IMG/VR virus record: IMGVR_UViG_3300050821_015430
Location: 1-26,105 of that record
Length of the DNA stretch: 26,105 bases
Reading direction: 5' to 3' (one strand)
Source: a virus
The notes under the pieces were generated by a model that had not been told where the DNA came from, did not search any database, and saw only the letters and a program-made list of their open reading frames with translations. This document shows, piece by piece, positions 502-20,049 of this stretch (position 1 is the stretch's first letter; each line of letters starts with the position of its first letter). Made by a program: the position numbers and the translations under genes.

Positions 502-510
502 AGAAATACT
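502..510 (-). promoter_or_regulatory. Late box AGTATTTCT upstream of gpJ
   Basis: Read on the minus strand, this nine-base element ends 6 nt before the gpJ ATG. It is one of eleven copies of RGTAWWTCT next to late-gene starts. It forms a divergent pair with the plus-strand copy at 538-546; the two make an inverted repeat (AGAAATACTT / AAGTATTTCT) with a 26-nt spacer. Confidence 0.6.
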
Positions 511-537
511 TCGGTCCCCTAAGCCCTAGGCGCGGGA

Positions 538-546
538 AGTATTTCT
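538..546 (+). promoter_or_regulatory. Late box AGTATTTCT upstream of gpU
   Basis: Plus-strand copy of the RGTAWWTCT element, ending 8 nt before the ATG at 555. It is the only clear copy on the plus strand, and it precedes the first gene of the only plus-strand tail gene pair, so the box follows the gene orientation. Confidence 0.6.
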
Positions 547-554
547 AGGCCGCA

Positions 555-1253
555 ATGACGGGAGCACTCGGACCGGTAATCTTTAGTGGCGGACTCGGAA
601 GCATGAATGACTTCCACGCCATAAACAAGCATCGGAAAGAGACATTCATTAAACACAGAGTCATCCAGGCCAACGATTTAATCGAATCCACCGGCTCCGA
701 CCCGATCGAGCTATCGATCGAGATGCATTTCCATGCCCCCTATACCCTGGGCCCCGGCATTGCCCTAAGCGCGCTAGAGGCGCTGCAGGCGGCCAAGATA
801 CCCGTCCCGCTAATCATCGGCTCCACCCCGGTCGGGCGCGGTTTCCTTACCCTTTTCGTTATCGAGGAGATCTCGATCAAGATGTCGAAGTTTATCGCCG
901 GTTCCGTTATCATCGGAGATATCGATGTTAAGTTATTAGAATATCCCAACGCCTTCGGCCTGGCCGGGCCGCTCTCCGCCCTAGGCGGCGCGCTCCCGGG
1001 ATTATCTAACGCCGTCGCCTCCCTAACCAATATCGTCTCCCCCTTCGCCGGGATCGTTAACCTGGCCGGGGCGGTCACCGCCCCCCTTACCGCCGGGATC
1101 GGCGTGCTTAAGACGATAGCCGGTGCTAGCCCCGCCGCCGCTATTACCTCCCTCGTCTCTTCGCTTAAACCGGGTTCCGCCGTTTCCATTACCGCCGCCT
1201 CGGCCGCGACGGTGCAAACCGCCCTAGCCAATATCCGAAAAGCCGGATTTTAA
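555..1253 (+). CDS. U: P2 gpU-like tail completion protein
   Basis: A 232-residue protein. Residues about 48-135 resemble the P2 gpU family: PIELSIEMHFHAPYTLG is followed by a helix (ALSALEALQAAKIPVPLII) and then by GFLTLFVIEEISIKMSKF and an IDVKLLEYPN strand. In P2-like phages gpU caps the tail tube at the head-proximal end. P2 gpU is about 160 residues, so this copy has an unusual C-terminal extension of about 95 residues rich in Ala, Leu, Gly and Ser, with strongly hydrophobic stretches. The gene is on the plus strand whereas the rest of the tail genes are on the minus strand. It is followed 2 nt later by the gpW gene and starts 8 nt after a late box. The family call rests on the core pattern only. 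Confidence 0.65.
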   Translation: MTGALGPVIFSGGLGSMNDFHAINKHRKETFIKHRVIQANDLIESTGSDPIELSIEMHFHAPYTLGPGIALSALEALQAAKIPVPLIIGSTPVGRGFLTLFVIEEISIKMSKFIAGSVIIGDIDVKLLEYPNAFGLAGPLSALGGALPGLSNAVASLTNIVSPFAGIVNLAGAVTAPLTAGIGVLKTIAGASPAAAITSLVSSLKPGSAVSITAASAATVQTALANIRKAGF

Positions 1254-1255
1254 GC

Positions 1256-1732
1256 ATGATCGTTTACAAAAGCTTCTCCGCCTTCGCCGGTAATACCAAG
1301 TACCTCGTCGACGGAGCCTTCCAGTGGGACATGGAGGTGCTCGAAAACTCGGTCGAGCTAGTCCTTTCGAACGTCTTTAACATCCTGGCTACCCCCTTCG
1401 GCACCCAGCCGCTTTTGCGGGCCTTCGGGCTCTCCATGCGTTGGATTGATCAGCCCGGATCGTTAGGCATTATGCAGGCCCGCACCGCCGCCCTTCTCTC
1501 CATCTCGATCTGGGAGCCGAGGGCCCATGTGCGCGCCCTGGACTTTATCCTGAACCCGGGGGACGTCATGGCCGGGATCTACGACGTGCGGATCGAGCTA
1601 GAGGTCGATTTAAGCTTGCCGGTCAATACGGCTCTCTTTGCCCCGCCCGCCCCGGTGAATACCTGGGTACTCGACGCGCCTTTCGACGGGGTTACCGTGC
1701 CGACCGCTATGCAAGAGCTACTAACCTTATAG
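1256..1732 (+). CDS. W: gpW / gp25-like baseplate wedge protein
   Basis: A 158-residue protein with the gp25/gpW signature. It has FQWDMEVLENSVELVLSNVF, then ILATPFGTQPLLRAFGLSM (the conserved T..G.....P.FG pattern), then ARTAALLSISIWEPRAHVR, where WEPR matches the family's terminal helix-strand motif, and a VRIELEVDL strand. In P2 and T4 relatives it is a structural component of the baseplate wedge, next to J. Residues after about 125 are a Pro-rich tail. The gene begins 2 nt after gpU on the plus strand, with no box or clear Shine-Dalgarno sequence of its own, so it is probably translationally coupled to gpU. It converges on the minus-strand gene ending at 1890. Confidence 0.8.
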   Translation: MIVYKSFSAFAGNTKYLVDGAFQWDMEVLENSVELVLSNVFNILATPFGTQPLLRAFGLSMRWIDQPGSLGIMQARTAALLSISIWEPRAHVRALDFILNPGDVMAGIYDVRIELEVDLSLPVNTALFAPPAPVNTWVLDAPFDGVTVPTAMQELLTL

Positions 1733-2847: not shown

Positions 2848-2851
2848 CGTT

Positions 2852-4551: not shown

Positions 4552-7134
4552 TTAAACCACCGCCGCCCGGCTCCGGCGGGTATGCAAGACCCTCTCCACC
4601 GCGTCGGCGATGGCCTCCGGGTCGGCGTTGCCCTGCACGGTAATGTTAATCGTCGTACTACCGAGCCCCGCCGCTCCCGCCCCGGATAAAGGCAAAATCG
4701 CCTCTGGCCCGCTCTCCCCGATTAACGCCCGGGTAGGCCGTTTTACGATCCCGCCCAGCGCCCCCCGGAAGACGTCCACGTTGTATGGGTCTCGGGACCC
4801 GCTGCGATCTGCAAATCTCCAGGTCCGCCCGTACTCGTCGGTAAACATCTGGCCCGGCGAGACGCCGTACTTCGCCTGCGCCGCGTAACCGAGCGCCACA
4901 TCTCCCGCCCGCAAAGGCCCGGTAATGCCCGGGAATGCGCCGACATGGTGGTAGGAATTCCAGTCGTAGGTCGGTCCCCCCGGCTGGTCTCCGGGAACGG
5001 AAGGCCCGTACTCGGTAAAGTGGGCCCCGGTAACCGCCCCGGAAAATCCGCCCGCACCCATGCCGAAGACGCCCCCGGCGAAGTTAAGCGCCGCTAGCTG
5101 ACCGAGGGATTCGGTGACCTTATCGAGCGCCGCGTTAAAATGGACGAAATCGTTGCCGGTGGTCTTCTCGACCGCCTCGTTGAGCTTCTTTTGCGCCTCC
5201 GACCCTTCCTTCAGCACCTTGTTATGTTCTTCCAGGGCCTTGGCCGCCCTCTCCCTCTCCCTCGTCGCATCCTTTCTTAAATCCTCCTCGCTCATTCCCT
5301 CCGGGGAAATAACGCTCCAATCGTACTTATCCGTCTTAGGGTCGTAATAAGGGGGTTTAACCACCTTATCGAACAGGTGCCCAACCGCCGTGGCGGTTAC
5401 GGCGGCGATGGTGGCAAAGATGGTGGCCCCCGCCGCCGAGCCGAGAAAGAAATTCTCTAAGAGAACGGGGATAGTGGCCTCATTTTTCGCCTGCACCGCC
5501 TCCCGGACGATTTCGTCGAGACCTTTACCCCCGGTGGCGGCGGCCCCCGCCGCTCGCACGGCGGCAGTCATCTTGGCCAGCATCCCGAGAAAGGTTAAAA
5601 AAACCGTACCCAGGGCTATGGTCGTTTCCGCCAGCCACTTGGTAATATTAATCGCAATCAGGGCTTCGAAACCGAAAATAGCCTTATCTATCCACTTCTT
5701 TACATCGTCGGGGTGGTCAACGAACCATTGGAAGGCATCGGTAATCTTGGTAAGGATATCCTGGCTAAGCTTGGTCGCCTTGTCCAACCAGGTACGCCCC
5801 GCCTCCGTCATAAAGCGGGCCATGATGACCTGGGTGTGCTCCTTATTCCACATCGGGCGGGGCTCCTTCTCGAATAACTCCACGCCGCCGGTAATCGCCT
5901 TCCATAAGCCCTCGAACATAGTCTTAAGCCGGTTAACCACCGGGGTATTGGCCAGCGCATCCCAGAGGTTCTTTATCATGGCCCCCCACTGCTTCCCGGT
6001 ATCGATCATGGACTTGAAGACGTCCGTGAAGTTGATCTTGTCTAGCCAATCGTTAATCTCGTCGGCGATCGGGGAGATAACCTTCTCGAAGAATTCCCCG
6101 ATCTTATTCTCGAAGTCTTCCCAGTGTTCCCCGAAGCGATAGAACATCCCCTCCATGCCCTCCATATGCGCTTTTATTAAGGGGAAGCCCTTATTTTCCC
6201 CCAGCTCCAGAATGGCCTTATTCAGCGCGTCGATCCCCTTCGCCCCGGCCAGCGCCCCCCCGGTAACCTCTCCCGTGCGCCGGGAGACCTTAGCCGGAGC
6301 GAAAGCGGCCGCCATCTGGGTAATCGGAATGCCGGTATCCGCCGCGATCTGTTGCAGGAGGGCGGTGCCCATGCCCCCGCCCCGGCCTATGCCCGCGATG
6401 GCCGTAGGCCGCACCCGCCCGGCGGCCAGCATAGGCCCTAGCTTGCCGTAGGCGGCCATAGTGGCTTGCGCGCCCGCTTCCGTGCCCCCGCCTACTCCGA
6501 TAAGCGCCATGGCCATCCGCTCCGCCGCCTCCGGGGTACGAAAGCGGTCGCTACGGGCGAGCTGCGTCATTATGCGCATGGCCTCCTCGTGCCCCACCCG
6601 GGCTCGTCCGGAGATCCGCTCGGCGGCCTCCTCGTACTCCGGCGCTTGCGCTCCCCGGCCCCGCCCGGTCAAGGTAGCCCGCAAAGTGGCCGCCTCCGTT
6701 TCCCGGGCCCGGTGCACCTCGATCCCTTTCTTAAGAAGTTCCTCCCCAACCAGTGCTCCGCCCGCCGCACTTAAGACCCCGCTTATCCCGATCCATTCCA
6801 GGGGCTTATTTATCTGCTCGACGAAGGACTTATAGCTCTCCTTCATCTTCTCCATGGCCTCGTGCATCTTCTTTTGCGTTTCCTTGGCCGCCTCGGCCAT
6901 GTGCTTAAAGGCCTCCTTAAAGGAGTGATCCATGGATTCGGCGGATTTCTTCGCCTCCTTCCTCGCCCCGTCGAAGGTCTCCTTATAGGCCCGGCCCATA
7001 ACGGCGTTAATGGTGCGGGCGGTCGCGCCCTGCTTCTTTAGGAGGTCCTCCAAGTCCTTAAACATCTTCAGGACCTCCGGCTTAATCTTGCCGCCGAGGA
7101 GAATATCGAAACTAACGTCCGAAGCCGCTGCCAT
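4552..7134 (-). CDS. Tail tape measure protein
   Basis: An 860-residue protein. The N-terminal 100 residues are Lys/Glu/Met-rich and helical (coiled coil). Residues about 160-300 hold the tail-fibre-independent helical core with Gly-rich stretches. Two hydrophobic segments near residues 495-525 (ITKWLAETTIALGTVFLTFL) and 575-595 may insert in the host membrane. The C-terminus has the classic tape-measure motif GGIVKRPTRALIGESGPEAI, followed by INITVQG and a short helix. Residues about 705-790 form an unusual insert (ITGPLRAGDVALGYAAQAKY ... ADRSGSRDPYNVDVF) that looks like a compact beta domain. It is preceded by the chaperone frameshift ORF and by a GGTATTTCT late box 7 nt before the ATG. 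The protein sets tail length and occupies the tube lumen. Confidence 0.9.
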   Translation of the reverse strand: MAAASDVSFDILLGGKIKPEVLKMFKDLEDLLKKQGATARTINAVMGRAYKETFDGARKEAKKSAESMDHSFKEAFKHMAEAAKETQKKMHEAMEKMKESYKSFVEQINKPLEWIGISGVLSAAGGALVGEELLKKGIEVHRARETEAATLRATLTGRGRGAQAPEYEEAAERISGRARVGHEEAMRIMTQLARSDRFRTPEAAERMAMALIGVGGGTEAGAQATMAAYGKLGPMLAAGRVRPTAIAGIGRGGGMGTALLQQIAADTGIPITQMAAAFAPAKVSRRTGEVTGGALAGAKGIDALNKAILELGENKGFPLIKAHMEGMEGMFYRFGEHWEDFENKIGEFFEKVISPIADEINDWLDKINFTDVFKSMIDTGKQWGAMIKNLWDALANTPVVNRLKTMFEGLWKAITGGVELFEKEPRPMWNKEHTQVIMARFMTEAGRTWLDKATKLSQDILTKITDAFQWFVDHPDDVKKWIDKAIFGFEALIAINITKWLAETTIALGTVFLTFLGMLAKMTAAVRAAGAAATGGKGLDEIVREAVQAKNEATIPVLLENFFLGSAAGATIFATIAAVTATAVGHLFDKVVKPPYYDPKTDKYDWSVISPEGMSEEDLRKDATRERERAAKALEEHNKVLKEGSEAQKKLNEAVEKTTGNDFVHFNAALDKVTESLGQLAALNFAGGVFGMGAGGFSGAVTGAHFTEYGPSVPGDQPGGPTYDWNSYHHVGAFPGITGPLRAGDVALGYAAQAKYGVSPGQMFTDEYGRTWRFADRSGSRDPYNVDVFRGALGGIVKRPTRALIGESGPEAILPLSGAGAAGLGSTTINITVQGNADPEAIADAVERVLHTRRSRAAVV

Positions 7135-7141: not shown

Positions 7142-7150
7142 AGAAATACC
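7142..7150 (-). promoter_or_regulatory. Late box GGTATTTCT upstream of the tape measure gene
   Basis: Minus-strand copy of RGTAWWTCT, ending 7 nt before the ATG at 7134. Flanking CGGG and CCCG could pair and present the box in a small loop. Confidence 0.55.
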
Positions 7151-7159: not shown

Positions 7160-7340
7160 CTATTCCGGCGGGGTCAGTAGCTCGGCGAGGGTAAGGCTCC
7201 ACTCGACCGCCTCGTCGAGCGGTAAGCTTAACCAGTGCTCTACGGTCGGCGCGTGATGCGCCAGGCTTAGATAGAGCTTACGCCAGATAGCCGACGGATC
7301 GCCCTCGGGATCTACTCCGTCTTCGCGCTCTTCCCGCCCG
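7160..7340 (-). CDS. Tail assembly chaperone -1 frameshift extension (gpE'-like)
   Basis: In the -1 frame relative to the 7312-7725 gene, a frame stays open past that gene's TAG and encodes EDGVDPEGDPSAIWRKLYLS, LAHHAPTVEHWLSLPLDEA and VEWSLTLAELLTPPE, ending at a TAG at 7160-7162. It has no ATG or GTG start of its own near the overlap. This is the position, and the W..LP.DE pattern, of the frameshifted second chaperone of P2 (E') and similar phages. A shift would give a fusion of about 188 residues. No perfect heptanucleotide slip site is present. Candidate slips are the TTTTC runs at 7347-7351 and 7340-7344. The left coordinate of the overlap is approximate. Confidence 0.65.
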
Positions 7341-7725
7341 AAAATTGAAAAGACGCCGCTTGTAGAAACATAAGCGGGAGGTCTTCGTAATGCATCTTGT
7401 AGAGGTCCTCCGGCGTGATTTTGTTTAGCTTCGCGACCACTAGGGACAAGAAGACCTCGCTCGTGAATTTATTAAAGGTAACCCGGGAATCTTCCGGAAA
7501 TTTGCGCTGGTAGGTGCGGAGTAGCTCGAAGAGATCCTTCCCGGTTAGCACCCCCTTCGGGTCGAGGAGGAGCCACTTTATTTCCTTTCCGTCGACGTTA
7601 ATGGGGGCGGAAAGATAGAAATAACGGACATCGTTGCCTGCCTCCGGGGAGACGACTTCTAGTTTCGGAGAAATTTCTTCTCCGGCTTCTCCGGCGGGCA
7701 CGACGGCGAGATTATCGGCGCTCAT
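7312..7725 (-). CDS. E: Tail assembly chaperone (gpE-like)
   Basis: A 137-residue protein between the tube and tape measure genes, the conserved slot for the tail assembly chaperone. It has ISPKLEVVSPEAGNDVRYFY, a strand region with INVDGKEIKWLLLDPKGVLT, and helices GKDLFELLRTYQRKF and SLVVAKLNKITPEDLYKM that resemble the gpE/gpG type. These proteins bind the tape measure during tail assembly and are not in the virion. Its last codons overlap the -1 extension at 7160-7340. It starts 5 nt after an AGTATTTCT box, which follows a perfect six-pair stem-loop. Confidence 0.75.
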   Translation of the reverse strand: MSADNLAVVPAGEAGEEISPKLEVVSPEAGNDVRYFYLSAPINVDGKEIKWLLLDPKGVLTGKDLFELLRTYQRKFPEDSRVTFNKFTSEVFLSLVVAKLNKITPEDLYKMHYEDLPLMFLQAASFQFSGGKSAKTE

Positions 7726-7730: not shown

Positions 7731-7739
7731 AGAAATACT
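7731..7739 (-). promoter_or_regulatory. Late box AGTATTTCT upstream of the tail chaperone
   Basis: Minus-strand copy of RGTAWWTCT, ending 5 nt before the ATG at 7725, the shortest spacing seen. Confidence 0.55.
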
Positions 7740-7755: not shown

Positions 7756-8268
7756 CTAAGTGTTAGCCCGGGTAATGGCGTTTAGATCGACGCCATTAAT
7801 TATACAAATATTTCCACCTTGGTCTATCTCCCAGTACTTAATCCCTCCCCACAGGAGGGCCAGGTAGGTGCAATCAAAAGTCAGGCTAACGCCCCCCTTG
7901 CCGGAGGTCTCCCGTTTTCCTAAATTGTAACCCTGGCTAAAAACAGTTAAAATAATTTCCTCCGGGTCTTCGTTAACCTGGCCGGAGCCGGTATCCGCGC
8001 TATAGATAGAGGCTAGGGAACGAATGCGCTGCCCGCCTCCGGAGAAAAGTTGCAAACTTTGCCGGTTGGTCGTGTGGAAGGTAATAACACACTCCATCGG
8101 TTGCGGATTGCCTTGAATGCCGAGGTTGCTCGAACCCGCCCAGGAGGCCCCTTTGACGGTGTCTTTTTCCCACTGCAGGTGCGGCAACGTAATGTCGGCG
8201 ACGGCTACCTCTACTCCGTTGGCGGAGTAGACGTTAAAATTTTTAACCGAGAAAGGATAGACCGGCAT
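7756..8268 (-). CDS. FII: Tail tube protein (P2 FII-like)
   Basis: A 170-residue protein with the FII tube pattern. It begins PFSVKNFNVYSANGVEVA, then ADITLPHLQWEKDTVKGA, then a central LGIQGNPQPMECVITFHTTN strand pair and a C-terminal LTFDCTYLALLWGGIKYWEI. P2 FII is about the same size. The tube protein polymerises inside the sheath, and its order directly after the sheath gene is conserved. The start follows an AGTATTTCT box by 6 nt. The box overlaps the last codons and stop of the sheath gene (S-I-S-stop), and the frame is in phase with the sheath gene. Confidence 0.85.
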   Translation of the reverse strand: MPVYPFSVKNFNVYSANGVEVAVADITLPHLQWEKDTVKGASWAGSSNLGIQGNPQPMECVITFHTTNRQSLQLFSGGGQRIRSLASIYSADTGSGQVNEDPEEIILTVFSQGYNLGKRETSGKGGVSLTFDCTYLALLWGGIKYWEIDQGGNICIINGVDLNAITRANT

Positions 8269-8271: not shown

Positions 8272-9783
8272 CTAAGAAATACTCGGGATGGTTATGCTAG
8301 AGATCCAGGCGGTTAAGCCGTTGGCGTCGTAGGATTGCTCCACGATCAATTGCCTAATTGGAGTCGGCGGGGTCCACAGGACCGTGTAGGTGTATTTGCC
8401 AGCCTCGACATCGGTGGCTAGGTTCTTGGCCGGGTCGAAGCGCACCCGGGCGGTATTAGCCGCCTGAATGGCTACGAGATGGTTCAAATATTGCTGGATC
8501 GTCTCCCCGATCGTGGCCAGGTAACGCTGGTTGCCCGGGTCGTCGATAAATTGCTTTAACGTCAACGAAAGGGTATTGCCCAAGAAATTAAACATAAACC
8601 GCTCGTTGGTCCACATTTGCGGGATCTGTGTGGACAGAGGATAGTCGGTCGTATAGTCGCCGATTAATGTCCAGCCGGTGTCGTTCACGGCGGTAAAGAC
8701 GCCGTAATTCTCGATAGAGGTAGCCGTACCGAGATCCATGCGGACGCTCTTGCCGTTAGCGAGGACCAAGCCGGTAATGCCCACGTTGTGCTTGTTAGAA
8801 GGCACGGCCACGGGCACATTCTGAAATTGAGCGGCGGTTACGTTCTGCGCTACCGCGTAAACCGTGGAGGCATGGTAAACCTTCGAGCCGAGCTGTATCA
8901 TCGGCCACCCGGCGATGGCGAAGGCGGAGACGAAGTTGTGGGCGTTCTTCCAGGACCAGATCCCCGTCCAGTTGGTCACCGCCGCCGGATCGATATCGCA
9001 GATATAGACGCCCCGGAACTGCGAATTAGAAATGCTCTGCACAGCGGCGTTGGCCGCGCTAAAGAGATCCGGATCGGAGCCGTAGCCGGGGGCGATGAGC
9101 TGGGCGGGGACGATGCCGGTATCCGTATAACAATGCTGCAGATTCTCTAACCCGAGGGCGTTGCCGGAGGTGTCCGTGCCGCCGATAATGTCGTCGACAT
9201 CAATGTTCGCCAGGTTAGGCGTATAGAAGCTAACCGTAAAGCTCGCCTCCAATGCCGCCGGAGAGCCCGCGTAGAGCTGGATGGTGCCGGTCTTAAGCGT
9301 ATCGTCGTCATAGCTAAAGGAGTAGTCGACCCCCTCCGTATAGACATTGGAGGCCCCTTTTAAGACTAAACTGGCCAAAATAACTTCCCCGGTAACCGGG
9401 ATCTCCATCTGCGCGTTAGGGACGAGGCCGCTATGCGAGACCGGCGTGCTCATCTTCCAGGGATCGAACACGTTACAGATAATAAGAGGGGAGGCGTTAT
9501 TTTCCACGAAGGCGTAATCGTACAGCTCGCAAAGCGGGTAGCCGTCCGCCGGGTCCCAATCGCTACTAAAGCCGAGGGTCGTCATCCAGTCGGGCTGGGC
9601 ATCGCAACGAACGTTAACGTTTACGACGCTGGCATAGCCGGAAGGCGACCATTGGTAGCCGGGCACGGCGTGCACCGGGGCCGCGCCCACGGCATAGATC
9701 GAACCGGCGGAAGCCTCGACCACTGGCACAACCGTGTCCAGGATATCGACCGAAATAACTCCACGGGGATTTTGCTGTGCCAT
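8272..9783 (-). CDS. FI: Contractile tail sheath protein (P2 FI-like)
   Basis: A 503-residue protein with the P2 FI sheath pattern. The N-terminus has PRGVISVDILDTVVPVVEAS and IYAVGAAPVHAVPG. The middle has an FVSAFAIAGWPMIQLGS region typical of the subtilisin-like inner domain (DPAAVTNWTGIWSWKNAHNF before it). The C-terminal handshake arm region has IRQLIVEQSYDANGLTAWIS. The sheath contracts during infection. It begins 3 nt after the preceding gene (9787-10035) and is in phase with it, with no Shine-Dalgarno and no late box, so coupled translation is likely. Family call is based on pattern, order and length. Confidence 0.9.
   Translation of the reverse strand: MAQQNPRGVISVDILDTVVPVVEASAGSIYAVGAAPVHAVPGYQWSPSGYASVVNVNVRCDAQPDWMTTLGFSSDWDPADGYPLCELYDYAFVENNASPLIICNVFDPWKMSTPVSHSGLVPNAQMEIPVTGEVILASLVLKGASNVYTEGVDYSFSYDDDTLKTGTIQLYAGSPAALEASFTVSFYTPNLANIDVDDIIGGTDTSGNALGLENLQHCYTDTGIVPAQLIAPGYGSDPDLFSAANAAVQSISNSQFRGVYICDIDPAAVTNWTGIWSWKNAHNFVSAFAIAGWPMIQLGSKVYHASTVYAVAQNVTAAQFQNVPVAVPSNKHNVGITGLVLANGKSVRMDLGTATSIENYGVFTAVNDTGWTLIGDYTTDYPLSTQIPQMWTNERFMFNFLGNTLSLTLKQFIDDPGNQRYLATIGETIQQYLNHLVAIQAANTARVRFDPAKNLATDVEAGKYTYTVLWTPPTPIRQLIVEQSYDANGLTAWISSITIPSIS
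8275..8283 (-). promoter_or_regulatory. Late box AGTATTTCT upstream of the tail tube gene
   Basis: Minus-strand copy of RGTAWWTCT that also encodes the last three residues (S-I-S) of the sheath protein. It ends 6 nt before the ATG at 8268. Confidence 0.55.
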
Positions 9784-10043: not shown

Positions 10044-10052
10044 AGATTTACT
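10044..10052 (-). promoter_or_regulatory. Late box AGTAAATCT upstream of the 82-residue protein
   Basis: Minus-strand copy of RGTAWWTCT with the AA variant at its centre, ending 8 nt before the ATG at 10035. It overlaps a small hairpin (10034-10047) that includes the start codon. Confidence 0.55.
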
Positions 10053-11873: not shown

Positions 11874-11882
11874 AGAAATACC
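11874..11882 (-). promoter_or_regulatory. Late box GGTATTTCT after the capsid gene
   Basis: Minus-strand copy of RGTAWWTCT, ending 7 nt before the ATG at 11866. Confidence 0.55.
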
Positions 11883-11960: not shown

Positions 11961-13301
11961 TTAGTTCGAAACGCCGGAGTTCGTACTACACGAGAAGGCG
12001 CTCGTGTAACGATACTTTACGTCGACGAACATATTGGCGATCACCCGCACCTCCGCCTGCGTGGCCAAAGAATAAATGTCCACGACGAGGTCGAGACCCG
12101 CCCATTGCCCGATCATTAGCTCGTTCCACTTGCCGAAAACCACCCGGTTGCCGGTAATTTGGTTAGTCGGGATCGCCCGGTGGCCATTCACCGTATTGTC
12201 CGCCTCCCAGAAGAAGGCCGGGAACCAAATCGAGGTGTTGCGCGGATCGGATTTCGCGTAGCCCTTCCAGGCTCCTTTTACCTGCGGAGAGGTTATATAG
12301 GCGGCGGTATCGTCGAGGACTAAATTGCCGGTTTCGACCGCCGACTCGAAGGAAATTACCTGCGCCCAAGTCGGATAGCCCGATCCGAAAGCGACGGGAG
12401 GAGCCGCCTTGGTATAATCGTAGGGCGGGGTCGGCGGACCCGGATTCGCCGCCATGTTAAAGATGCCGGTCGGCTGGTTAGCCCCGGTGCCGTTCAGGGC
12501 CACATTATCGATGGCGATCTGAATAATTTGGATGAGATCGTCCCTCACAATATTTTCGATGTCCAGGGAAGATTGGGCTAACAGTTGCTTGGAGTAGTTG
12601 CACCAGCCACCCACGCGGTTGGGGCTAAGCACGACGTTATCCAGCTTCAGGTCGGATTCCGTGAGCGGGGCAATTTCGGTGTTCCACGAAACGGTCGCGG
12701 GGGCGTTTTGCCGAGGCATGGACAGATTGCCGACCAGACCGGAAATATAGCGGGCTCCGGCCTGCAATACCGCCGTGCGGTTGCGCAGTAGCGGAATTAA
12801 GCTCGGCTCGACAGTCGTTTGCACGCTTACCCCGCCGGTCGAGGGCGGGCTAACGGTAAGGTCGCGGGTGAGCGCCCAATCCGGCACATAAAAACCGGTC
12901 GGCTCGGTGCCGTGGATACGGGCCATTTCGGCGCTAACCTCCGCCTCTAGGCCGTCGAAGCGGCCCTTGCCCTGCATAGCGGCTAGCATATTATTCAGCC
13001 CCCTAACCACGGAATAGGTGCTCCGGTCGCGATGGGTAAAGCCGAGGCTCGAATCGATGGCCGTCGGGATAGGCCGGTTACCAGCCGCAGGCATCTTCTC
13101 CCGCAGGATGTAACCGGTGAAATCGGCCACGGTTTTACCGGTGCGGATAAACTCTTCCGCCTCCGTACCGGCGTTAAATTTTTGCCCGAAAGCCTGAATT
13201 TCCCGGATACGGATTAGCTCCGACTCGCGGATTTTAACCACGTCGATCGTCGGAACTTCAGCCTGCGGCGGAGTCGGAGAGGGAGTAACGGGATCTGCCA
13301 T
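11961..13301 (-). CDS. Major capsid protein, separately initiated inside the protease-capsid frame
   Basis: The in-frame ATG at 13301 (codon 281 of the fusion) would give a 446-residue capsid protein. It is preceded by an AGTAAATCT box (13321-13329), the same element found before the protease itself and other late genes. The protein begins with Pro-rich residues, then a helical segment (VVKIRESELIRIREIQAFGQ) like the delta/scaffold domain of HK97 capsids, then the fold proper: LTVSPPSTGGVSVQTTVEPS, SMPRQNAPATVSWNTEIAPL and NYSKQLLAQSSLDIENIVRD, and near the end RVVFGKWNELMIGQWAGLDL. The internal start is inferred from the box and the domain boundary. The box is 19 nt from the ATG, longer than usual. 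Confidence 0.6.
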   Translation of the reverse strand: MADPVTPSPTPPQAEVPTIDVVKIRESELIRIREIQAFGQKFNAGTEAEEFIRTGKTVADFTGYILREKMPAAGNRPIPTAIDSSLGFTHRDRSTYSVVRGLNNMLAAMQGKGRFDGLEAEVSAEMARIHGTEPTGFYVPDWALTRDLTVSPPSTGGVSVQTTVEPSLIPLLRNRTAVLQAGARYISGLVGNLSMPRQNAPATVSWNTEIAPLTESDLKLDNVVLSPNRVGGWCNYSKQLLAQSSLDIENIVRDDLIQIIQIAIDNVALNGTGANQPTGIFNMAANPGPPTPPYDYTKAAPPVAFGSGYPTWAQVISFESAVETGNLVLDDTAAYITSPQVKGAWKGYAKSDPRNTSIWFPAFFWEADNTVNGHRAIPTNQITGNRVVFGKWNELMIGQWAGLDLVVDIYSLATQAEVRVIANMFVDVKYRYTSAFSCSTNSGVSN

Positions 13302-14141
13302 AAGATTAGCGCTTCTCTCTAGATTTACTTTTGCTTCGTCGGGCACCACGTCGTCGCCCTCCAAGCCTAACATGCGCACCTCGTAGAGTTCCGCTTCCCC
13401 CCGGTTAACCCCTACGGAAGGATCGGCGGGCACGGAGACTAAACTCATCTCCACCGGCTCCCAGCGGGAGACCTCGTAGAGATCCTCCATATCATCGTCG
13501 TCGCCGTTATCGTCGTCCTCATTAAAAAACCCGTTATCGTCGTCGCCATTGTCGTCGTCCTCGTCCCGGCGACGGACCCGGCCTAGTAGGCGCATGGCCC
13601 GGGGAATATAACCGGCGGAGATCTCCGTCTTTATACCATCCTGAATATCCCGGAGCGCCTCTTCTCCCGGCGGGTTGCGGCTAAGGAGGGCCACCGCCCG
13701 CCCCTTACCGTCGCTTACGGAATAGCTAACGATCTTGCCAATTTGCTGATTAAAATCGTGGTTCCACAGGAGCGGCACCGCCTGCCGATCTAGCCGGGCG
13801 GTATCGATGGCCCCCGGGGCGTGGCTAAGCACCTCCCGGAAAGTGCGGTCGCCCAGCTTGCGGCGCACCGGCATGCGGGAGGAGAAGCTAAAGGAGACCA
13901 GCCGTTTATCCGCATCGACAGTGCCGTTCTCGATCCGAGCCGATCGGTAGAGGGCGGGCGATTTTAAAGACTTTTCGCCCGGCGGTGGCGCGGAGCCGGG
14001 GTGCTTAGACCGCCAAGCGGTAAAACACATGGCGAGCCGCTGCTCGTTCGGTCGGTCGGGATCGGAATCGGCCAGCGCGTGCATGCACCGGGAAATGAAA
14101 TCCGCCTGTTTCTCGTTGTCGGTCGGTTTAGGAATCGGCAT
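11961..14141 (-). CDS. Prohead protease fused to major capsid protein
   Basis: A 726-residue fusion. Residues 1-50 carry a Cys/Trp-containing helical domain (FISRCMHALAD, MCFTAWRSKH) common in front of phage proteases. Residues about 65-245 are the U35-type prohead protease: VPLLWNHDFNQQIGK holds the catalytic-type His (about 128) and GIKTEISAGYIP the catalytic-type Ser (about 175). An Asp-rich repeat stretch lies at about 192-217, before LYEVSRWEPVEMSLVSVPAD. From residue 281 the protein is a capsid protein with an N-terminal scaffold-like helical region and an HK97-like fold. The gene starts 9 nt after an AGTAAATCT box. The protease and capsid are usually separate genes; here an internal box and ATG (13301) could give capsid alone in excess. 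Confidence 0.85.
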   Translation of the reverse strand: MPIPKPTDNEKQADFISRCMHALADSDPDRPNEQRLAMCFTAWRSKHPGSAPPPGEKSLKSPALYRSARIENGTVDADKRLVSFSFSSRMPVRRKLGDRTFREVLSHAPGAIDTARLDRQAVPLLWNHDFNQQIGKIVSYSVSDGKGRAVALLSRNPPGEEALRDIQDGIKTEISAGYIPRAMRLLGRVRRRDEDDDNGDDDNGFFNEDDDNGDDDDMEDLYEVSRWEPVEMSLVSVPADPSVGVNRGEAELYEVRMLGLEGDDVVPDEAKVNLERSANLMADPVTPSPTPPQAEVPTIDVVKIRESELIRIREIQAFGQKFNAGTEAEEFIRTGKTVADFTGYILREKMPAAGNRPIPTAIDSSLGFTHRDRSTYSVVRGLNNMLAAMQGKGRFDGLEAEVSAEMARIHGTEPTGFYVPDWALTRDLTVSPPSTGGVSVQTTVEPSLIPLLRNRTAVLQAGARYISGLVGNLSMPRQNAPATVSWNTEIAPLTESDLKLDNVVLSPNRVGGWCNYSKQLLAQSSLDIENIVRDDLIQIIQIAIDNVALNGTGANQPTGIFNMAANPGPPTPPYDYTKAAPPVAFGSGYPTWAQVISFESAVETGNLVLDDTAAYITSPQVKGAWKGYAKSDPRNTSIWFPAFFWEADNTVNGHRAIPTNQITGNRVVFGKWNELMIGQWAGLDLVVDIYSLATQAEVRVIANMFVDVKYRYTSAFSCSTNSGVSN
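13321..13329 (-). promoter_or_regulatory. Late box AGTAAATCT inside the protease-capsid frame
   Basis: Minus-strand copy of RGTAWWTCT within coding sequence, 19 nt before the in-frame ATG that begins the capsid domain. The same AA variant precedes the protease gene. Confidence 0.55.
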
Positions 14142-14147: not shown

Positions 14148-15908
14148 CTAAGATTTACTTTTTACTCGGGAGGCGGCTTTCCCGAGCTTCTCGACGAAGT
14201 GGAGCACCTCCCCCGGAGCCGGTTCAATCCCATAATCCGACACGTAGCTAACCATCCGACCCGAGCTAGGGCTTACTTTCTTCCTCGGGGGCTTCGCCGG
14301 GGGCGGGGCGGGCTCCTCCTCCGTCTCTTCTCCCTTTTCCGTTTCCCCTTCCGAGCCGGGCATCTCCGAGGTAGGAATGACGTTGGGATTACGGTTCGCT
14401 GGGTTCGAGAAAACGAGGCCCCGCTCCTCCTCTAGTTCCTTATCCCGGGCTAGCTCGTCGAGAAACTCTTCGTAGTCGATGCCGCGCTCGACCAGTTCCC
14501 GCCGCCGGGAGCTTAAGCCGCCATCGATCGCATTTAGAGCGCTGCCAATTTCCTTGGTTGGATCGACATAGGGAAACCCGCGCCCCTGCCACTCGATGTT
14601 AGCCAGGATTAAATCCGACTGCAGAATACTAGCCCCGGGGATAGCGTCGGAGAGGATGGCATAGGAGAGCCACTCCTCGAAGATCACCGCCAGCACATGG
14701 TCGGCGTAATAGCGCTGCAATTCCCGCCACCAATCATTTTCAATGTCTTTCGCCGCCCGGGCGGAGCTGTAATTGTAGGATTCGAAATCGGAGGCTAGGG
14801 AGTTATAAATTATCCCCACCCCGCAGGCGATCTTGCGCAGGTGCTGCTTGCGGAACTCCCCGTAGGCCGCGCCGGGCACCTGCGGGTCGAAGAATTTGAG
14901 CGTCTTGCCGAAGGGTAGCTCCTCCACGATCCCGGCCTGCAATTCGGAGATGGTCTCCCCGGTTTTGGTCTTGCCCTGACCCTCGTAGGGCTGGGCCCCG
15001 GGCTGCGACTCGATCACCCCCATCTTGGCGGCGAAGGCCCGCTGAGCGACGATCGTATACTCCTCGAATTTATCCAGCGTGCGGAGATCGAGGGCGTTGG
15101 CCCCGAACCAGGACATGCCGCGCACCTGACCGAGCCGGTCGGGGATAAAGACGTGCACGATGTCCTTAGCCGGGATGCGCTTGCGGGGGGCTTGCTGGTT
15201 GTTAGCGAAGAGGTCGGTTACCGGATAATCGATTACATGGTAGGCCACCGGCTTGCCGAAGGGGTTAACCTCTACCCCCATGGTTACCCGATTGCCGCCG
15301 GGAAGGGCGGTATTGTAGAAGATATCTAAGAAATCGTTCTCCAATATTTGGAGGGCGAAATTGAACTTATTCCCCGCCGCCGGGCCCCGGATAAATTGGA
15401 TAACCACCTCCCCGTCCACGGCTAGGCGCTGCAAGATCTGCTTATCGATTTCGAGCCCGGTAAACAGTTGCCGGATCTCGTAGTTTTTGCGCCGCCGGAA
15501 CTCCTTCCAGGCAGCCAGGAGCGCCGCGTTCAGCCGGGTATTCAGCTTGGGCCCCTTGAGGTTAGGCACCTTGGCCGCCAGCTTTATGCCGTGGTAGCCC
15601 AGGACATTCGACTTTAGCTCCCGGAGGAAACTTTTGACATAGGGGTTGTTCCTCTCTAAATCCCGCACCCGGGCCCGCACCACCCGAGACCCGTGAAAGA
15701 TTTCGTAATTCCCGGTAGTTAGCCAGGCACTCCAGTCCGCCTGAGTATTGGACGGCATAGCCGCGTCGTAGATGCGGGTGGAGGTCTTTAGGCTGGGGAG
15801 GGCGATGGCGTTATAGCGCCGGGGATCGCGGGAGGGCACCGGCTTAAGGCTCGGCACGGGTAAAGGCCCATAACCGAAGAAGGAGGCGAGAGAAGAGAGA
15901 AAACCCAT
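14148..15908 (-). CDS. Portal protein (lambda gpB family)
   Basis: A 586-residue protein of the lambda-type portal family. Typical segments are VRARVRDLERNNPYVKSFLR and ELKSNVLGYHGIKL near residues 80-115, VDGEVVIQFIRGPAAGNKFN, KRIPAKDIVHVFIPDRLGQV followed by RGMSWFGANALDLRTLDKFE, and YNYSSARAAKDIENDWWREL. The portal is the dodecameric ring at one capsid vertex through which DNA passes and on which capsid assembly starts. The C-terminal 90 residues are Glu/Pro/Lys-rich and probably flexible. No box or Shine-Dalgarno is visible. The gene starts 9 nt after the stop of the gpW-like gene and in phase with it, so coupling is likely. Confidence 0.9.
   Translation of the reverse strand: MGFLSSLASFFGYGPLPVPSLKPVPSRDPRRYNAIALPSLKTSTRIYDAAMPSNTQADWSAWLTTGNYEIFHGSRVVRARVRDLERNNPYVKSFLRELKSNVLGYHGIKLAAKVPNLKGPKLNTRLNAALLAAWKEFRRRKNYEIRQLFTGLEIDKQILQRLAVDGEVVIQFIRGPAAGNKFNFALQILENDFLDIFYNTALPGGNRVTMGVEVNPFGKPVAYHVIDYPVTDLFANNQQAPRKRIPAKDIVHVFIPDRLGQVRGMSWFGANALDLRTLDKFEEYTIVAQRAFAAKMGVIESQPGAQPYEGQGKTKTGETISELQAGIVEELPFGKTLKFFDPQVPGAAYGEFRKQHLRKIACGVGIIYNSLASDFESYNYSSARAAKDIENDWWRELQRYYADHVLAVIFEEWLSYAILSDAIPGASILQSDLILANIEWQGRGFPYVDPTKEIGSALNAIDGGLSSRRRELVERGIDYEEFLDELARDKELEEERGLVFSNPANRNPNVIPTSEMPGSEGETEKGEETEEEPAPPPAKPPRKKVSPSSGRMVSYVSDYGIEPAPGEVLHFVEKLGKAASRVKSKS
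14151..14159 (-). promoter_or_regulatory. Late box AGTAAATCT upstream of the protease-capsid gene
   Basis: Minus-strand copy of RGTAWWTCT, overlapping the last codons and stop of the portal gene (S-K-S-stop). It ends 9 nt before the ATG at 14141. Confidence 0.55.
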
Positions 15909-15917: not shown

Positions 15918-16553
15918 CTAGACGTAGGGATAGGGGTACCAGGGATACGGCCCGCCCCAGGGATTTTTAAAGACGGGGATAATAATGCGGGAGCGGGGAT
16001 TGCCGCTGAGGGCCGCCCGTTCGTCCTGCACCCGCTGGTAGAGGTCGTTGCGCACCGCCCACAGCTTCGAGATGTCCCACAGGGTATAGGCCTTTCCGGC
16101 GAAGGTTACGGAGGAGGTGCGCTGGCTGAGTAGTTGTAGGAGCGTGGCGTCGCAGGCGGTTAGCTGTTGCTCCAGCATGGTCGCCGTCGGCACCACCGTA
16201 CCGGGGGCGGAGATATCCGGGAGAGCGGTCACCGTCCCCTCCTGTAGCGTGTAGCGTTCCGGCACCGGGTTAGCTACGGCAATGGTATAAACGAGCGTCC
16301 CGGCGGGAAGAGTGGAGGTCTCGCCCGGCGGCACTAGCCAGTAAAAGATATTCCCTTGCAAAGTGGCCACCGTCGGCACCTTTACCGTGCCGCTAGCAAA
16401 GGTTAGCGTGGCCGTCCAGGGGCCATCCGTCGCCCCGGAACCATATTCCCCGGCGTCCATTTGGAAGGCCCAGGAGTCGCCGATGGTTAGGTTATCCGGG
16501 AAAATGACCGTGGAAGGCGGGGCAAAACCGGGTCCGGGATAGTAACCGTTCAT
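15918..16553 (-). CDS. gpW-like head completion protein with an N-terminal beta domain
   Basis: A 211-residue protein. Residues about 120-190 resemble the lambda gpW head completion protein: two helices around a small strand pair (MLEQQLTACDATLLQLLSQR, VTFAGKAYTLWDISKLWAVR, YQRVQDERAAL). Its slot, between the terminase side and the portal, is that of lambda W. Residues about 15-100 are a separate beta-sandwich-like segment (TIGDSWAFQMDAGEYGSGAT, TLTFASGTVKV, GTLVYTIAVANPVPERY), absent from lambda W, which is only about 68 residues. The C-terminus is aromatic and Pro-rich (NPWGGPYPWYPYPYV). The late box is 54 nt upstream, so this gene has an untranslated leader. Confidence 0.6.
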   Translation of the reverse strand: MNGYYPGPGFAPPSTVIFPDNLTIGDSWAFQMDAGEYGSGATDGPWTATLTFASGTVKVPTVATLQGNIFYWLVPPGETSTLPAGTLVYTIAVANPVPERYTLQEGTVTALPDISAPGTVVPTATMLEQQLTACDATLLQLLSQRTSSVTFAGKAYTLWDISKLWAVRNDLYQRVQDERAALSGNPRSRIIIPVFKNPWGGPYPWYPYPYV

Positions 16554-16607: not shown

Positions 16608-16616
16608 AGAAATACT
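16608..16616 (-). promoter_or_regulatory. Late box AGTATTTCT upstream of the gpW-like gene
   Basis: Minus-strand copy of RGTAWWTCT, 54 nt from the ATG at 16553. This is the largest spacing and argues against a pure ribosome-binding role. It overlaps the very end of the sigma-like gene. Confidence 0.55.
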
Positions 16617-17524
16617 TATTCGAAGAGGGGGACCGCCTCCGGATGCCCGTTTAGCACGAAACCGAGGTTACGGCGGAGGGCGGGAGAGGTAAGCCGTTCC
16701 CGCCGCCGTTCCCGCCGGTTGCGGTTCTCCGGATCGACTAGGATGATTAAATAGGGGGCTAGATCGCGCATAAGGAGAACTAGCTTCGAGAACTCCTCGC
16801 GAGTTAGGTAGGGGCGGTAACGGAGAAGGGAGGCGGCCCGGGTGCGGTTCAGGCTTTCCGGATCGATTAGCCGGGGCGGTAATTCGGCATAGAGAAGGCG
16901 ACGCACCTCCAGAATGGTTAAGTCATACAACTCCCTACTGCGGGTCTCGGTTAACCCGTAAACTAACATAGCGCTATTCGCGCATTGATAGCGGCGTAGC
17001 TCGAACCAACCATCGAGAAAGGAAGCGACATACCAGCGTTGCGCCTCCCGCTCCGCCGGGTCGGTCACGGTGCTTTTTATCCCGGCCCGGATGCGGAAAA
17101 CGAGATCGTCGATGGCCTCCCGGCTCTCCTTCTCCCCGTTGGTATGTAGCCGAGGCAAAATGCCCTCGTCTAGCTCGGTATAATGCTCGGCGCGGGCCCG
17201 GGCGGTAGAGACGGCGGTGCGGAGCGTATTGGTAATAAGATGCGAAAGGAAGGTAAAGGCGCTCCCCTTCTCCGCATCGAAACGGCGCAGGGAGCGGATA
17301 AGCTTATAATTGATCTCCGAGAGTAGCTCCTCTTCCGAACGGTAGCGGGTAGTGCCGTTAAAGCGGATCAGGGTTAACGCCCGTTCCCGGATAAGCTCGA
17401 CGATATCGGCCAGCGCCGCCGGGTCCTCGGTGCGGTTATAAACCGCGATCAGCGGCTCTAGCCGGGCGTTATCGAGGTGGAGGGAGGCTCCGCCTCGGGG
17501 GTTGTGTTTCGAGCGGAGATTCAT
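16616..17524 (-). CDS. Sigma-70-family-like factor in the late module
   Basis: A 302-residue protein. Residues about 40-108 look like sigma region 2: IRERALTLIRFNGTTRYRSE leads to INYKLIRSLRRFDAEKGSAF and TFLSHLITNTLRTAV, where RFDAEKGSAFTFL matches the conserved FDp.kG..F.tyl motif. Residues about 182-211 (ANSAMLVYGLTETRSRELYD) could be the helix-turn-helix of region 4. The remaining C-terminus is Arg-rich. Phage sigma factors such as T4 gp55 direct late transcription. The ATG overlaps the terminase stop (ATGA), so the two are coupled. A late box at 16608-16616 overlaps its end. Function is inferred from the motif; it could also be an inactive or anti-sigma-like relative. Confidence 0.65.
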   Translation of the reverse strand: MNLRSKHNPRGGASLHLDNARLEPLIAVYNRTEDPAALADIVELIRERALTLIRFNGTTRYRSEEELLSEINYKLIRSLRRFDAEKGSAFTFLSHLITNTLRTAVSTARARAEHYTELDEGILPRLHTNGEKESREAIDDLVFRIRAGIKSTVTDPAEREAQRWYVASFLDGWFELRRYQCANSAMLVYGLTETRSRELYDLTILEVRRLLYAELPPRLIDPESLNRTRAASLLRYRPYLTREEFSKLVLLMRDLAPYLIILVDPENRNRRERRRERLTSPALRRNLGFVLNGHPEAVPLFE

Positions 17525-18969
17525 GATTTAAACCACCCCCTCCCGGGTAGGAGCCGCTTTACCGGTAAAAGTGGGCGAGCTAAGGCCGCCAGGGTAGCCG
17601 GAACCGGGGTCGGCGTCGGGGCGGGCGGAGGCGGGGGCTCCGCTTCCGGCGAAGGAGGCGCTTCGGGCCGCCAGTCGTTTTCCGGCGGTTCGGCAAACGA
17701 GGCCCGGATCTTATCCCAGGCGATGTTAGGTAGCATCTCCAACGCGGCTAAGCCATAAATGCGCGCATCGAGGGCATGATTCGGGCGGCTATGGATGGGC
17801 ACGAAATAAGGAGCGCTGCTCCCTTTTACCATTTTTTCGGCGGTTAGTTGCTCGAAATATTCCTGGTCGTAACCGCAGGAGGGGTTAGAAGGGAAATGCT
17901 GGTAGGAGGGGCCATACTCCAGGACGGTATTCAAGGCGCTATAGAGCCGCTCCTTCGGCCCATCCACGGCCAGAATGAGCAAGTTGGCGTCCCGTTTGCC
18001 GGAGCGCTTCACCCATTGCGGGGTGTAGCCCCGACTCCCCTTCACAGCGAACCAATACTGGCGGCGGCAGCGGCGAACATAGGCGTAGGGCTGGGTCGGC
18101 TTATCCGAGCTATCGATGCAAACGGCGGCGGGCCAGATCCAATGGCCGCTCGCGTGCCGCCACCGCTTTAGTAGCCACTCGTCTAGCTCGGCGAAAACTT
18201 CCGGAAGCTCGGTATTGCCCCGGAAACTCTTATAGGCGATGCCCCAATTTTCCTCCCGTACCCCGTGCCCGAGAATTTCGCACTCCAGCCTATTGTGCTG
18301 CACGTCCACGCCCGCCGTCAGCACTAGGCACCTCTCCGGAACGACAATCTCCCCCTCGAACTCGGGGTACTCCTCCCGCCGGGACATTATATTTATGTGG
18401 TCGGGCGGAGGGAGGGTCTCTAGGGTATAGGTCTCGGCCAGGATTAGATTTTGAAAGGTTTTGCGCCCCTCTAACCCCAGCCGTTCGGCCCGGAAGAAGC
18501 GGTCCACGAGATAGTGCAGCCAGGATTTAAAGCCCCTCCGGCAAGGCCCGAGCACGATAAAGGCGTTCGCCCAGTAGCCGTAGGCTCCCCGGTTATCCGG
18601 GCGGGTAGCGATCCAGCGCCCCTTACGCACTAAAGCCTGCCGGGCCTTATCGTCGTAGCGCGTCTCGCAGGCCGGACACTCGACGTAAGCCTCCTCGGTT
18701 AAATGCACCTTGCGCCCGGTCCGCTCGTCGATCCGCTTCGGCCAGCGGATATCCTTCCACATTATCACGAACTCGTTCCGGCACTTGGTGCAGCGCACGA
18801 ACCACTTCCGGTAATCCGTGCCCTCCATCTCCGTGGCGATGCGGGACATATCGGTCAGCGTGGGCGTGCTCGTTTTTACGGAGAAGGCCTCCGGATGACG
18901 GAAGGAACGCTGCTCGACCAGGGTAATCGGATCGCCCTCCGACTCGGCGCTCTCCGGATATCTATCCAC
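17521..18969 (-). CDS. Terminase large subunit, C-terminal part (continues in frame from 19044)
   Basis: The frame is open from the TAA at 19042-19044 to the stop at 17521. The first ordinary start in it is a GTG at 18969, inside Walker B. Upstream of that GTG the frame still encodes GGANSASQLS and WGVFDEVDRYP, the gpA-family motif and Walker B (VFDE). Downstream follow TSTPT (motif III), a CxxC...CxxC zinc-ribbon-like pair near residues 60-63 and 98-101, then VLTAGVDVQHNRLECEILGH and VCIDSSDKPTQPYAYVRRC, with acidic residues expected of the nuclease, and NHALDARIYGLAALEML near the end. A GTG start would lack Walker A and half of Walker B, so this is the rest of one enzyme rather than a gene of its own. 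The C-terminal tail is Pro-rich. Confidence 0.8.
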   Translation of the reverse strand: MDRYPESAESEGDPITLVEQRSFRHPEAFSVKTSTPTLTDMSRIATEMEGTDYRKWFVRCTKCRNEFVIMWKDIRWPKRIDERTGRKVHLTEEAYVECPACETRYDDKARQALVRKGRWIATRPDNRGAYGYWANAFIVLGPCRRGFKSWLHYLVDRFFRAERLGLEGRKTFQNLILAETYTLETLPPPDHINIMSRREEYPEFEGEIVVPERCLVLTAGVDVQHNRLECEILGHGVREENWGIAYKSFRGNTELPEVFAELDEWLLKRWRHASGHWIWPAAVCIDSSDKPTQPYAYVRRCRRQYWFAVKGSRGYTPQWVKRSGKRDANLLILAVDGPKERLYSALNTVLEYGPSYQHFPSNPSCGYDQEYFEQLTAEKMVKGSSAPYFVPIHSRPNHALDARIYGLAALEMLPNIAWDKIRASFAEPPENDWRPEAPPSPEAEPPPPPAPTPTPVPATLAALARPLLPVKRLLPGRGWFKS

Positions 18970-19041
18970 CTCGTCGAAGACGCCCCAACGGGCGGTATGC
19001 GCGGATAACTGTGACGCGGAGTTAGCCCCGCCTAAAACTAT

Positions 19042-19044
19042 TTA
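19042..19044 (-). other. In-frame ochre codon splitting the large terminase
   Basis: The bases GGA-TAA-ATA interrupt an otherwise continuous frame (19623 to 17521). A single change would restore sense. Many other genes here end in TAA, so TAA is not generally a sense codon in this phage. Confidence 0.85.
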
Positions 19045-19623
19045 TCCCCCGACAAAAGTTTTATGCAGGATGGTATTCGACCCCTCGCCCAGCTTAGACT
19101 TGCGCACCGCCTTCTCCATCTTCTCCCGCACGGGCGGGCAGGCATTGACGAGAGGGGTAAAGCGGTTTTTCGACCAGTGGGAGGCGTTATCGATGGTAGG
19201 GTGGACGGCCACCACCGTGCCCGGATTCTGGTCAATCATCCACAGGAGCCCCCCCTCGATAATGCTGCTTTTGCCGAGCGCCTGGCTGGCAAACATGAGG
19301 GTTAGGCTATTGCAGGCGGGATCGGCGAAGGCGTTGAGGGGCTCGATCTGAAATTCGAAATTCCGCCAGCGCCCGGCAATGGGCGACCCTTTAGGCGCTA
19401 CCCTATACTTCTCCTGCCATTCCGCCGGAGAGAGGTAGGTGCGGGGCTTTAGTAGTTCGAGGAACTCCTTTAGAAAATCGTAAACCGCCGGGTCAGATAC
19501 CCATATCGTCGGGCGTAAGGGCGGCGGCGAACTTCGGGCGCGCCTTGCTCGGAGCGCTTTCTTCGCTTTCCTCGCTTTCTTCGCTTTTTTCGGACCGGAG
19601 TTTGGATTGGGCGGCGGCGACAT
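19042..19623 (-). CDS. Terminase large subunit, N-terminal part, ended by an in-frame TAA
   Basis: A 193-codon frame holding the start of the gpA-type packaging ATPase: WVSDPAVYDFLKEF, an RTYLSPAEWQEKYRVAPKGS segment, Walker A (SQALGKSS, residues about 113-120), VVAVHPTIDNASHWSKNRF and TILHKTFVGG before the TAA. The TAA falls where the family normally continues straight into the GANS motif and Walker B, which are present in the same frame after it. A read-through product would have about 700 residues, near the family length. The first 35 residues are Lys/Ala/Arg-rich and lie over the end of the small terminase gene; the true start may differ, as no closer ATG is present. Confidence 0.8.
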   Translation of the reverse strand: MSPPPNPNSGPKKAKKARKAKKALRARRARSSPPPLRPTIWVSDPAVYDFLKEFLELLKPRTYLSPAEWQEKYRVAPKGSPIAGRWRNFEFQIEPLNAFADPACNSLTLMFASQALGKSSIIEGGLLWMIDQNPGTVVAVHPTIDNASHWSKNRFTPLVNACPPVREKMEKAVRKSKLGEGSNTILHKTFVGG

Positions 19624-20032
19624 CTTCCAGGAGCACCGGCCAGGAGGAGAGGTTCTTCAGGAAGTCCTCTTTTTCGCGGCGGGATAGCTCCGAGAGCGTA
19701 ATTACTGTCGAGAAGACGTCCGCCAGGGCGGTGAACCCTTTCGTTAGTTCCGCCCGGTTTAAAACCTCCGCCCGGGTAATGGCATTCTCCAGGGCGTAGC
19801 GCGCCGTTATCTCTCTTTGCGTCTTTAACTTCTCCACGTGCATAGAGCCGAAGAGGGCCTCGACCAGCTGCTCCGTCGTGTACAGGCCGTCCTTATCCGG
19901 GGAGGCGGAGACCTCGTTAAGCCTCCGCTTAAGCGTGGAGTTGTTCACGCCGAACTCCCGGGCCGCCTTCTCGACATTCCAGCGCAGCGGTGCGTGCTGC
20001 GGGACATTGGATTTCGTCGGGAGGCTAGGCAT
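19493..20032 (-). CDS. Terminase small subunit (Nu1-like)
   Basis: A 179-residue protein with an N-terminal helix-turn-helix-like domain (RWNVEKAAREFGVNNSTLKR), like the DNA-recognising domain of lambda Nu1, then a DGLYTTEQLVEALFGSMH segment, a long helical region for oligomerisation (residues about 85-145) and an acidic C-terminal repeat (SEESEESEES). It recognises the packaging site and hands DNA to the large subunit. It overlaps the large terminase start by 131 nt. The start follows a GGTAATTCT variant of the late box by 8 nt. Confidence 0.8.
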   Translation of the reverse strand: MPSLPTKSNVPQHAPLRWNVEKAAREFGVNNSTLKRRLNEVSASPDKDGLYTTEQLVEALFGSMHVEKLKTQREITARYALENAITRAEVLNRAELTKGFTALADVFSTVITLSELSRREKEDFLKNLSSWPVLLEDVAAAQSKLRSEKSEESEESEESAPSKARPKFAAALTPDDMGI

Positions 20033-20040
20033 AACGCTAA

Positions 20041-20049
20041 AGAATTACC
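20041..20049 (-). promoter_or_regulatory. Late box variant GGTAATTCT upstream of the small terminase gene
   Basis: Matches RGTAWWTCT on the minus strand and ends 8 nt before the ATG at 20032. The flank TTAGCG just before the start is shared with the tail tube gene leader. Confidence 0.5.

Follow-up and report, generated by a model that had tools for sequence, protein, structure and literature searches.

Nine-base boxes close to late gene starts and a sigma-70-type gene point to a dedicated late-promoter system in an uncultured phage lineage

Late sigma factors that act on -10-only boxes are known from phages, and so are phage mRNAs without a leader. The late promoters of T4 carry TATAAATA at -13 to -6, which is read by gp55 (PMC1524935), and the sigma factors of phiEco32 (gp36) and of phage 7-11 are associated with a core TGATGT (PMC4331800). 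In bacteria, TANNNT stands about 12 nt upstream of the start codon of leaderless genes (PMC3160421, PMC12340547). A precedent among phages is the Thermus phage phiYS40, most of whose middle and late mRNAs lack a leader (PMC3594737), and AR9 provides a precedent for phage promoters inside ORFs, which may make truncated proteins (PMC5312081). A literature search returned no report of the two features in combination, of a layout in which the boxes abut the start codons, or of three matched dialects, and a search for the sequence of the box described below yielded nothing relevant.

The window analyzed here is the whole stretch of 26,105 bp that constitutes positions 1-26,105 of the IMG/VR virus record IMGVR_UViG_3300050821_015430. 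Most of its virion genes are preceded by a nine-base box, RGTAWWTCT, and we consider it very likely that these boxes are -10-type late promoters, which would be read by the host RNA polymerase together with the phage's own sigma factor (16616-17524, minus strand). The first-pass annotation had placed eleven boxes before late genes, always in the orientation of the gene, and had proposed to count the pattern on both strands of the whole genome. That count, made on the window, returned exactly these eleven sites, where 1.00 was expected and each of 100 shuffles gave at most 4; no further copy was found in the window and the reversed pattern had no match in it. The distances given in that annotation hold as well, as nine of the eleven boxes end 5-9 nt ahead of a late gene start and the remaining two lie 19 nt upstream of an internal capsid ATG and 54 nt upstream of the gpW-like gene, and the orientation is that of the gene for every copy. 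Nine genes have a copy of the real box 4-10 nt upstream, compared to a mean of 0.03 and a maximum of 6 for its anagrams (n=3000). Widening the pattern to RGTANNTCT added a single window site (1714-1722, minus strand), away from any gene start. The sheath, portal and g10-g12 genes of the window have no box of their own, and Rfam gave no match in the window.

The pattern had been fitted by eye to the window, so that the decisive test lies in other genomes. As relatives we took IMG/VR contigs with 72-82% identity in portal or sheath; a scan of a genome collection with sigma and sheath alignments, carried out as a host search, gave no relative. In 160 kb of these relatives, the near-copy contig G009 left out, RGTAWWTCT occurs 57 times versus 3.5 times in dinucleotide shuffles, and the reversed control pattern occurs three times, never at a start. 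The boxed orthologues comprise the tube, tail chaperone, tape-measure, 82-aa and protease-capsid genes, and further boxed sites are the inner capsid start, gpW, gpJ and gpU. Moreover, the flavour of the box is specific for the gene and is itself conserved across the relatives: the inner capsid start and the 82-aa gene have AGTAAATCT, mostly preceded by at least one A, the tube, chaperone and gpW sites have AGTATTTCT, and the protease-capsid site has a looser version, RGTANNTCT. The first-pass annotation did not include these flavours, nor the sigma gene and the dialects discussed below.

At one end of the window AGTATTTCT is found at 502-510 on the minus strand, 6 nt before the gpJ-like gene (1-495), and again at 538-546 on the plus strand, 8 nt before the gpU-like gene (555-1253; Pfam PF06995, 6e-12). 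The gpJ site reads AGTATTTCT in G012 and AGTAGTTCT in G011, and the gpU site is also boxed in G012, G013 and G011. The two divergent boxes stand back to back in the window (502-546), in G012 (13388-13410) and in G011 (13284-13304). Their gap is only 5 bp in G012 and 3 bp in G011, and the two promoters could therefore hardly be occupied at once.

All other boxes are on the minus strand. The tape-measure gene (4552-7134) has GGTATTTCT at 7142-7150, 7 nt before its start, a site shared with G001, G005 and G012 and present as AGTAGTTCT in G011. The gene at 7312-7725, called a chaperone in the first-pass annotation, has AGTATTTCT at 7731-7739 (5 nt), which recurs in G001, G005, G008 and G012, as AGTAGTTCT in G011 and as GTATTTA in L048. 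The tail-tube gene (7756-8268) has AGTATTTCT at 8275-8283 (6 nt), within the last codons of the sheath gene. At this site the C-terminal Ser-Ile-Ser of the sheath is coded AGT ATT TCT in seven of the nine contigs of the dialect, the window included; these codons are uncommon in the same genes, with a joint frequency of about 0.002 or less. The 82-aa gene (9787-10035) is preceded at 8 nt by AGTAAATCT at 10044-10052, with the same AAA flavour in G001, G003, G006, G007, G008 and G009, and a 75-aa gene (11639-11866) at 7 nt by GGTATTTCT at 11874-11882.

The protease-major capsid fusion ORF (11961-14141, minus strand; Pfam Phage_capsid 1e-30, Peptidase_S78 4e-7) carries two boxes. The outer one, AGTAAATCT at 14151-14159, ends 9 nt before the ORF and is found as exact or RGTANNTCT versions in G001 and G003-G008 and as AGTAGTTCT in G011. 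The inner one, AGTAAATCT at 13321-13329, lies 19 nt ahead of the internal ATG of the major capsid part; this ATG is conserved in nine contigs, and in eight relatives it is found 16-22 nt downstream of the box. In some relatives the sequence between the inner box and the ATG includes a purine-rich, Shine-Dalgarno-like stretch (GGAGGAG in G006). The gpW-like head-tail joining gene (15918-16553, minus strand; phrog_5774, 7e-19) would be driven from AGTATTTCT at 16608-16616, 54 nt upstream and in the 3' end of the sigma ORF. The last box, GGTAATTCT at 20041-20049, is found 8 nt before the small terminase gene (terS, 19493-20032), the product of which is an HTH protein. The neighbouring large terminase (17521-19623, minus strand) is split in the window by an in-frame TAA near 19044 (FVGG*IVLGG); five relatives have no stop there (GGWMVLGG or GGWLILGG), and the window differs at this point by several G-to-A changes. 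On the other side, 20251-20748 (plus strand) is a 165-aa ORF with a signal-peptide-like stretch, the C-terminal part of which matches a sequence of contig G010 at 63% identity.

An alignment of 40 start-proximal sites revealed that over 45 nt upstream only the nine positions of the box carry strong information; nothing resembling a conserved -35 element was found within those 45 nt. The box ends 4-10 nt before the start, with a mode of 6, and the first T of the core is located 11-17 nt ahead of it, which agrees with the distance of about 12 nt between -10 element and start codon in leaderless genes.

The late cluster contains a candidate for the reader of the box. The ORF at 16616-17524 (minus strand, 302 aa), flanked by the large terminase and the gpW-like gene, matches Pfam Sigma70_r2 at 1.8e-5 and 24.8 bits, just above the gathering cut-off of 24, and the same family is matched in seven of eight orthologues (best 5.6e-6). 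TIGR02937 (sigma70-ECF) is matched at 4e-6, under its curated cut-off, and phrog_234 ('late sigma transcription factor'), which we take to be the gp55 family, in three of the eight orthologues with a best E-value of 0.003. For the AlphaFold model (pLDDT 71) the best PDB folds are all sigma factors, with the RpoS structures 6omf and 7xl3 on top (probability 0.97-0.98, E about 0.08). The region-2 fragment 5h6x superposes at an rmsd of 2.5 A and a TM of 0.70 of the target; profile score, orthologues and fold all point to sigma-70 region 2, the part responsible for core binding and -10 recognition. For region 4 (-35 recognition and flap binding) there is no HMM match in the ORF; the model has an HTH-type helix pair at 178-212, and the RpoS alignments span nearly the whole length, at an E-value of 0.08 and a pLDDT of 71 only. 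The scores are low in absolute terms, but libraries and orthologues agree, and by HMM and fold we regard the product as a divergent sigma-70-type factor. A scan with the window protein alone missed all relatives, an alignment query found them, and wherever a relative covers the locus, its late cluster contains the gene. Among named phages the protein had no match. A related segment was seen in the 64-kb contig G014 (about 47962-50998; L050-L053), where the sigma gene is accompanied by a capsid fragment and an inverted terS, next to a different contractile-tail phage and integrase-like genes; we interpret it as a probable prophage remnant in which the sigma gene was retained.

The sequence of the box varies with the clade of the sigma factor. 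In the more distant G011 (sheath 56%, sigma 44%) RGTAWWTCT occurs once and RGTAGTTCT nine times (0.23 in shuffles). Six of these nine precede orthologues of window genes that carry a box (gpW, protease-capsid, 82-aa, chaperone, tape measure and gpJ), and the others are found before the large terminase, g12 and gpX. L045 has RGTAGTTCT at the capsid start and, with one mismatch, also at gpW. L047 and L048 (sigma 38-40%) have neither pattern; here GTATTTA is found before gpW, the 82-aa gene, the chaperone and others, with 8 copies versus 1.7 by shuffle in L048 and 4 versus 0.9 in L047, where a single shuffle gave up to 4. When 13 sigma proteins are arranged in a tree, each of the three dialects corresponds to a separate clade; this requires two changes, the least possible number, which none of 200 shuffles attained. 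Such a concerted change of the boxes with the sigma clade is what a trans-acting reader would predict. The sigma clades are also phage clades, and with dialects that run parallel to the phage phylogeny, the covariation would look the same for any co-inherited factor or after a change of host. In G011 the aligned starts of the sigma ORF (30594, L038) and the protease-capsid ORF (27403) are ATT and ATC; there is no ATG, GTG or TTG at these positions and non-canonical starts are thus possible.

The first-pass annotation had left the choice between a late promoter and a translation signal. In the latter case the box would act on the mRNA, replacing the Shine-Dalgarno sequence at a spacing of 5-9 nt, and both the tight 4-10 nt spacing in the 40 sites and the fact that boxed genes mostly lack a Shine-Dalgarno sequence agree with this. 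The lack itself, pointed out in the annotation, is real, but many unboxed genes share it and the anti-Shine-Dalgarno pairing energies of boxed and unboxed genes do not differ significantly (p = 0.31), so that we dropped it as a distinguishing feature of boxed genes. A strong Shine-Dalgarno sequence is present at other genes of the phage (g5, g10 and sigma), and the box has no known complementarity to the 3' end of bacterial 16S rRNA. Most telling is the gpW site, where the box is kept in 11 phages (the window and ten relatives, the latter at 7-39 nt) at distances to the ATG of 7, 8, 27, 29, 37-39 or 54 nt: 27-54 nt in eight phages and 7-8 nt in three. Counted from the R position (in L047 and L048 the base before GTATTTA), its phase in the sigma frame is 0 in eight phages, 1 in two (G011 and L044) and 2 in the window. 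With all three phases and such distances, the box is kept neither for the protein sequence alone nor at a ribosome spacing. The inner capsid box likewise lies 16-22 nt from its ATG in all relatives covering it, and a ribosomal partner is not expected to change with a phage sigma clade. On spacing and reading frame at these two sites we have rejected the translation signal, which we hold to be highly improbable. The comparisons support a DNA-level promoter signal instead of a ribosome-binding signal, with the gpW site as the deciding one, and the promoter option of the first-pass annotation thus gains from gpW, from the inner capsid spacing, from the sigma gene and from the dialects.

A promoter signal could also be a -10 element for the host sigma factor, as in hosts rich in leaderless genes, with the phage sigma reading something else. 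The TAWWTC core indeed resembles the TANNNT beside leaderless genes of Actinobacteria and Deinococcus-Thermus (PMC3160421, PMC12340547), but beyond the TA core G2 and C8-T9 are strictly kept in the 40 sites, nearly all copies change together in relatives, and no box-bearing late cluster that covers the locus is without the sigma ORF. The 6 kb outside the late cluster are free of boxes, a weak argument as chance alone predicts no more than about 0.2 for this part. We consider this explanation very unlikely. Scarcely more than a slim chance is given to binding by another late-gene regulator, an activator or repressor: a short repeated site ahead of late genes would suit it and terS provides an HTH protein among the window genes, but an asymmetric, gene-oriented box mostly 4-10 nt from the starts would have the regulator cover the initiation site, and no other promoter element is conserved upstream. 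Finally, the box might be a site at which an endoribonuclease trims late mRNAs to short leaders. Orientation dependence, proximity to starts and the presence of boxes inside coding regions could be accommodated, but no nuclease candidate was found among the late genes scanned and the divergent gpJ/gpU pair, with one box each, needs two start sites anyway; we give this hardly any credence.

For the phage sigma and its promoters we infer recognition of the box by the sigma factor, the transcript start, the late timing and leaderless translation alike. Each box would be the -10-type element of a late promoter that needs no -35 element and would be recognized by the host's RNA polymerase in complex with the phage sigma. 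Placing TAWWTC at -12 to -7, the position of the core in sigma-70 promoters, would put the end of the box at -6 and the start of transcription 6 nt beyond that end. Start codons begin 5-11 nt past the box, and given the spacing of 4-10 nt (mode 6) most late mRNA leaders would measure about 0 to 5 nt; for the gpW and internal capsid promoters the leaders would be about 10 to 50 nt long. Late genes would thus have their own promoter each, or one per short group, and the unboxed sheath, portal and g10-g12 would be read from boxes upstream. The inner capsid promoter would allow additional capsid protein to be made from within the protease-capsid ORF. The terS box would drive a terminase-sigma unit and put the sigma factor under its own control, which is uncertain because this box was not found at the same site in G006, G013 or G011. 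More generally, we lean towards the view that a small phage lineage uses its own -10-only, leaderless promoters per gene or group with a dedicated sigma factor, and that the specificity changed at least twice, most promoters being replaced concertedly.

A likely transcription switch would herewith be identified for a family of uncultured tailed phages, whose sigma factor is without a match among named phages. It would provide a rule for annotation, in that late genes, their true starts and internal starts could be read from the box. If true, the three dialects and sigma clades form a natural series of matched sigma-box pairs, in which it is testable how a sigma factor and its promoters change specificity together, and whether a start-codon-adjacent promoter is a general late-gene strategy in leaderless-tolerant hosts.

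A close comparison is with T4. Like T4, the lineage would employ a divergent phage-encoded sigma factor for virion genes and a single -10-type box without a -35 element, the latter as seen here in the 40 aligned sites. The position of the T4 box at -13 to -6 fits the 4-10 nt spacing found here, and divergence of the box with divergence of the sigma factor was reported there too (Aeh1 gp55; PMC1524935). The systems differ in the box itself, TATAAATA versus RGTAWWTCT, RGTAGTTCT or GTATTTA, and late transcription in T4 additionally uses the clamp gp45 and the coactivator gp33. The T4 late genes keep leaders with a Shine-Dalgarno sequence, whereas the boxes here abut the start codons. At a best E-value of 0.003 to phrog_234, the present sigma factor is not a close homologue of gp55. 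With phiEco32 and 7-11 the lineage shares a phage-encoded sigma factor and a short, extended -10-like motif upstream of structural genes; there, the motif is another one, the promoters were sought in intergenic regions and are fewer, and leaderless mRNAs are not reported (PMC4331800). For phiYS40 the available text of the source gives no link between a phage sigma factor and a box (PMC3594737). With bacterial leaderless genes the shared feature is a -10 element about 12 nt before the start that leads to a leaderless mRNA. However, in bacteria the motif is loose and belongs to the host sigma factor, whereas here a strict nine-base box is tied to the clade of the phage sigma factor.
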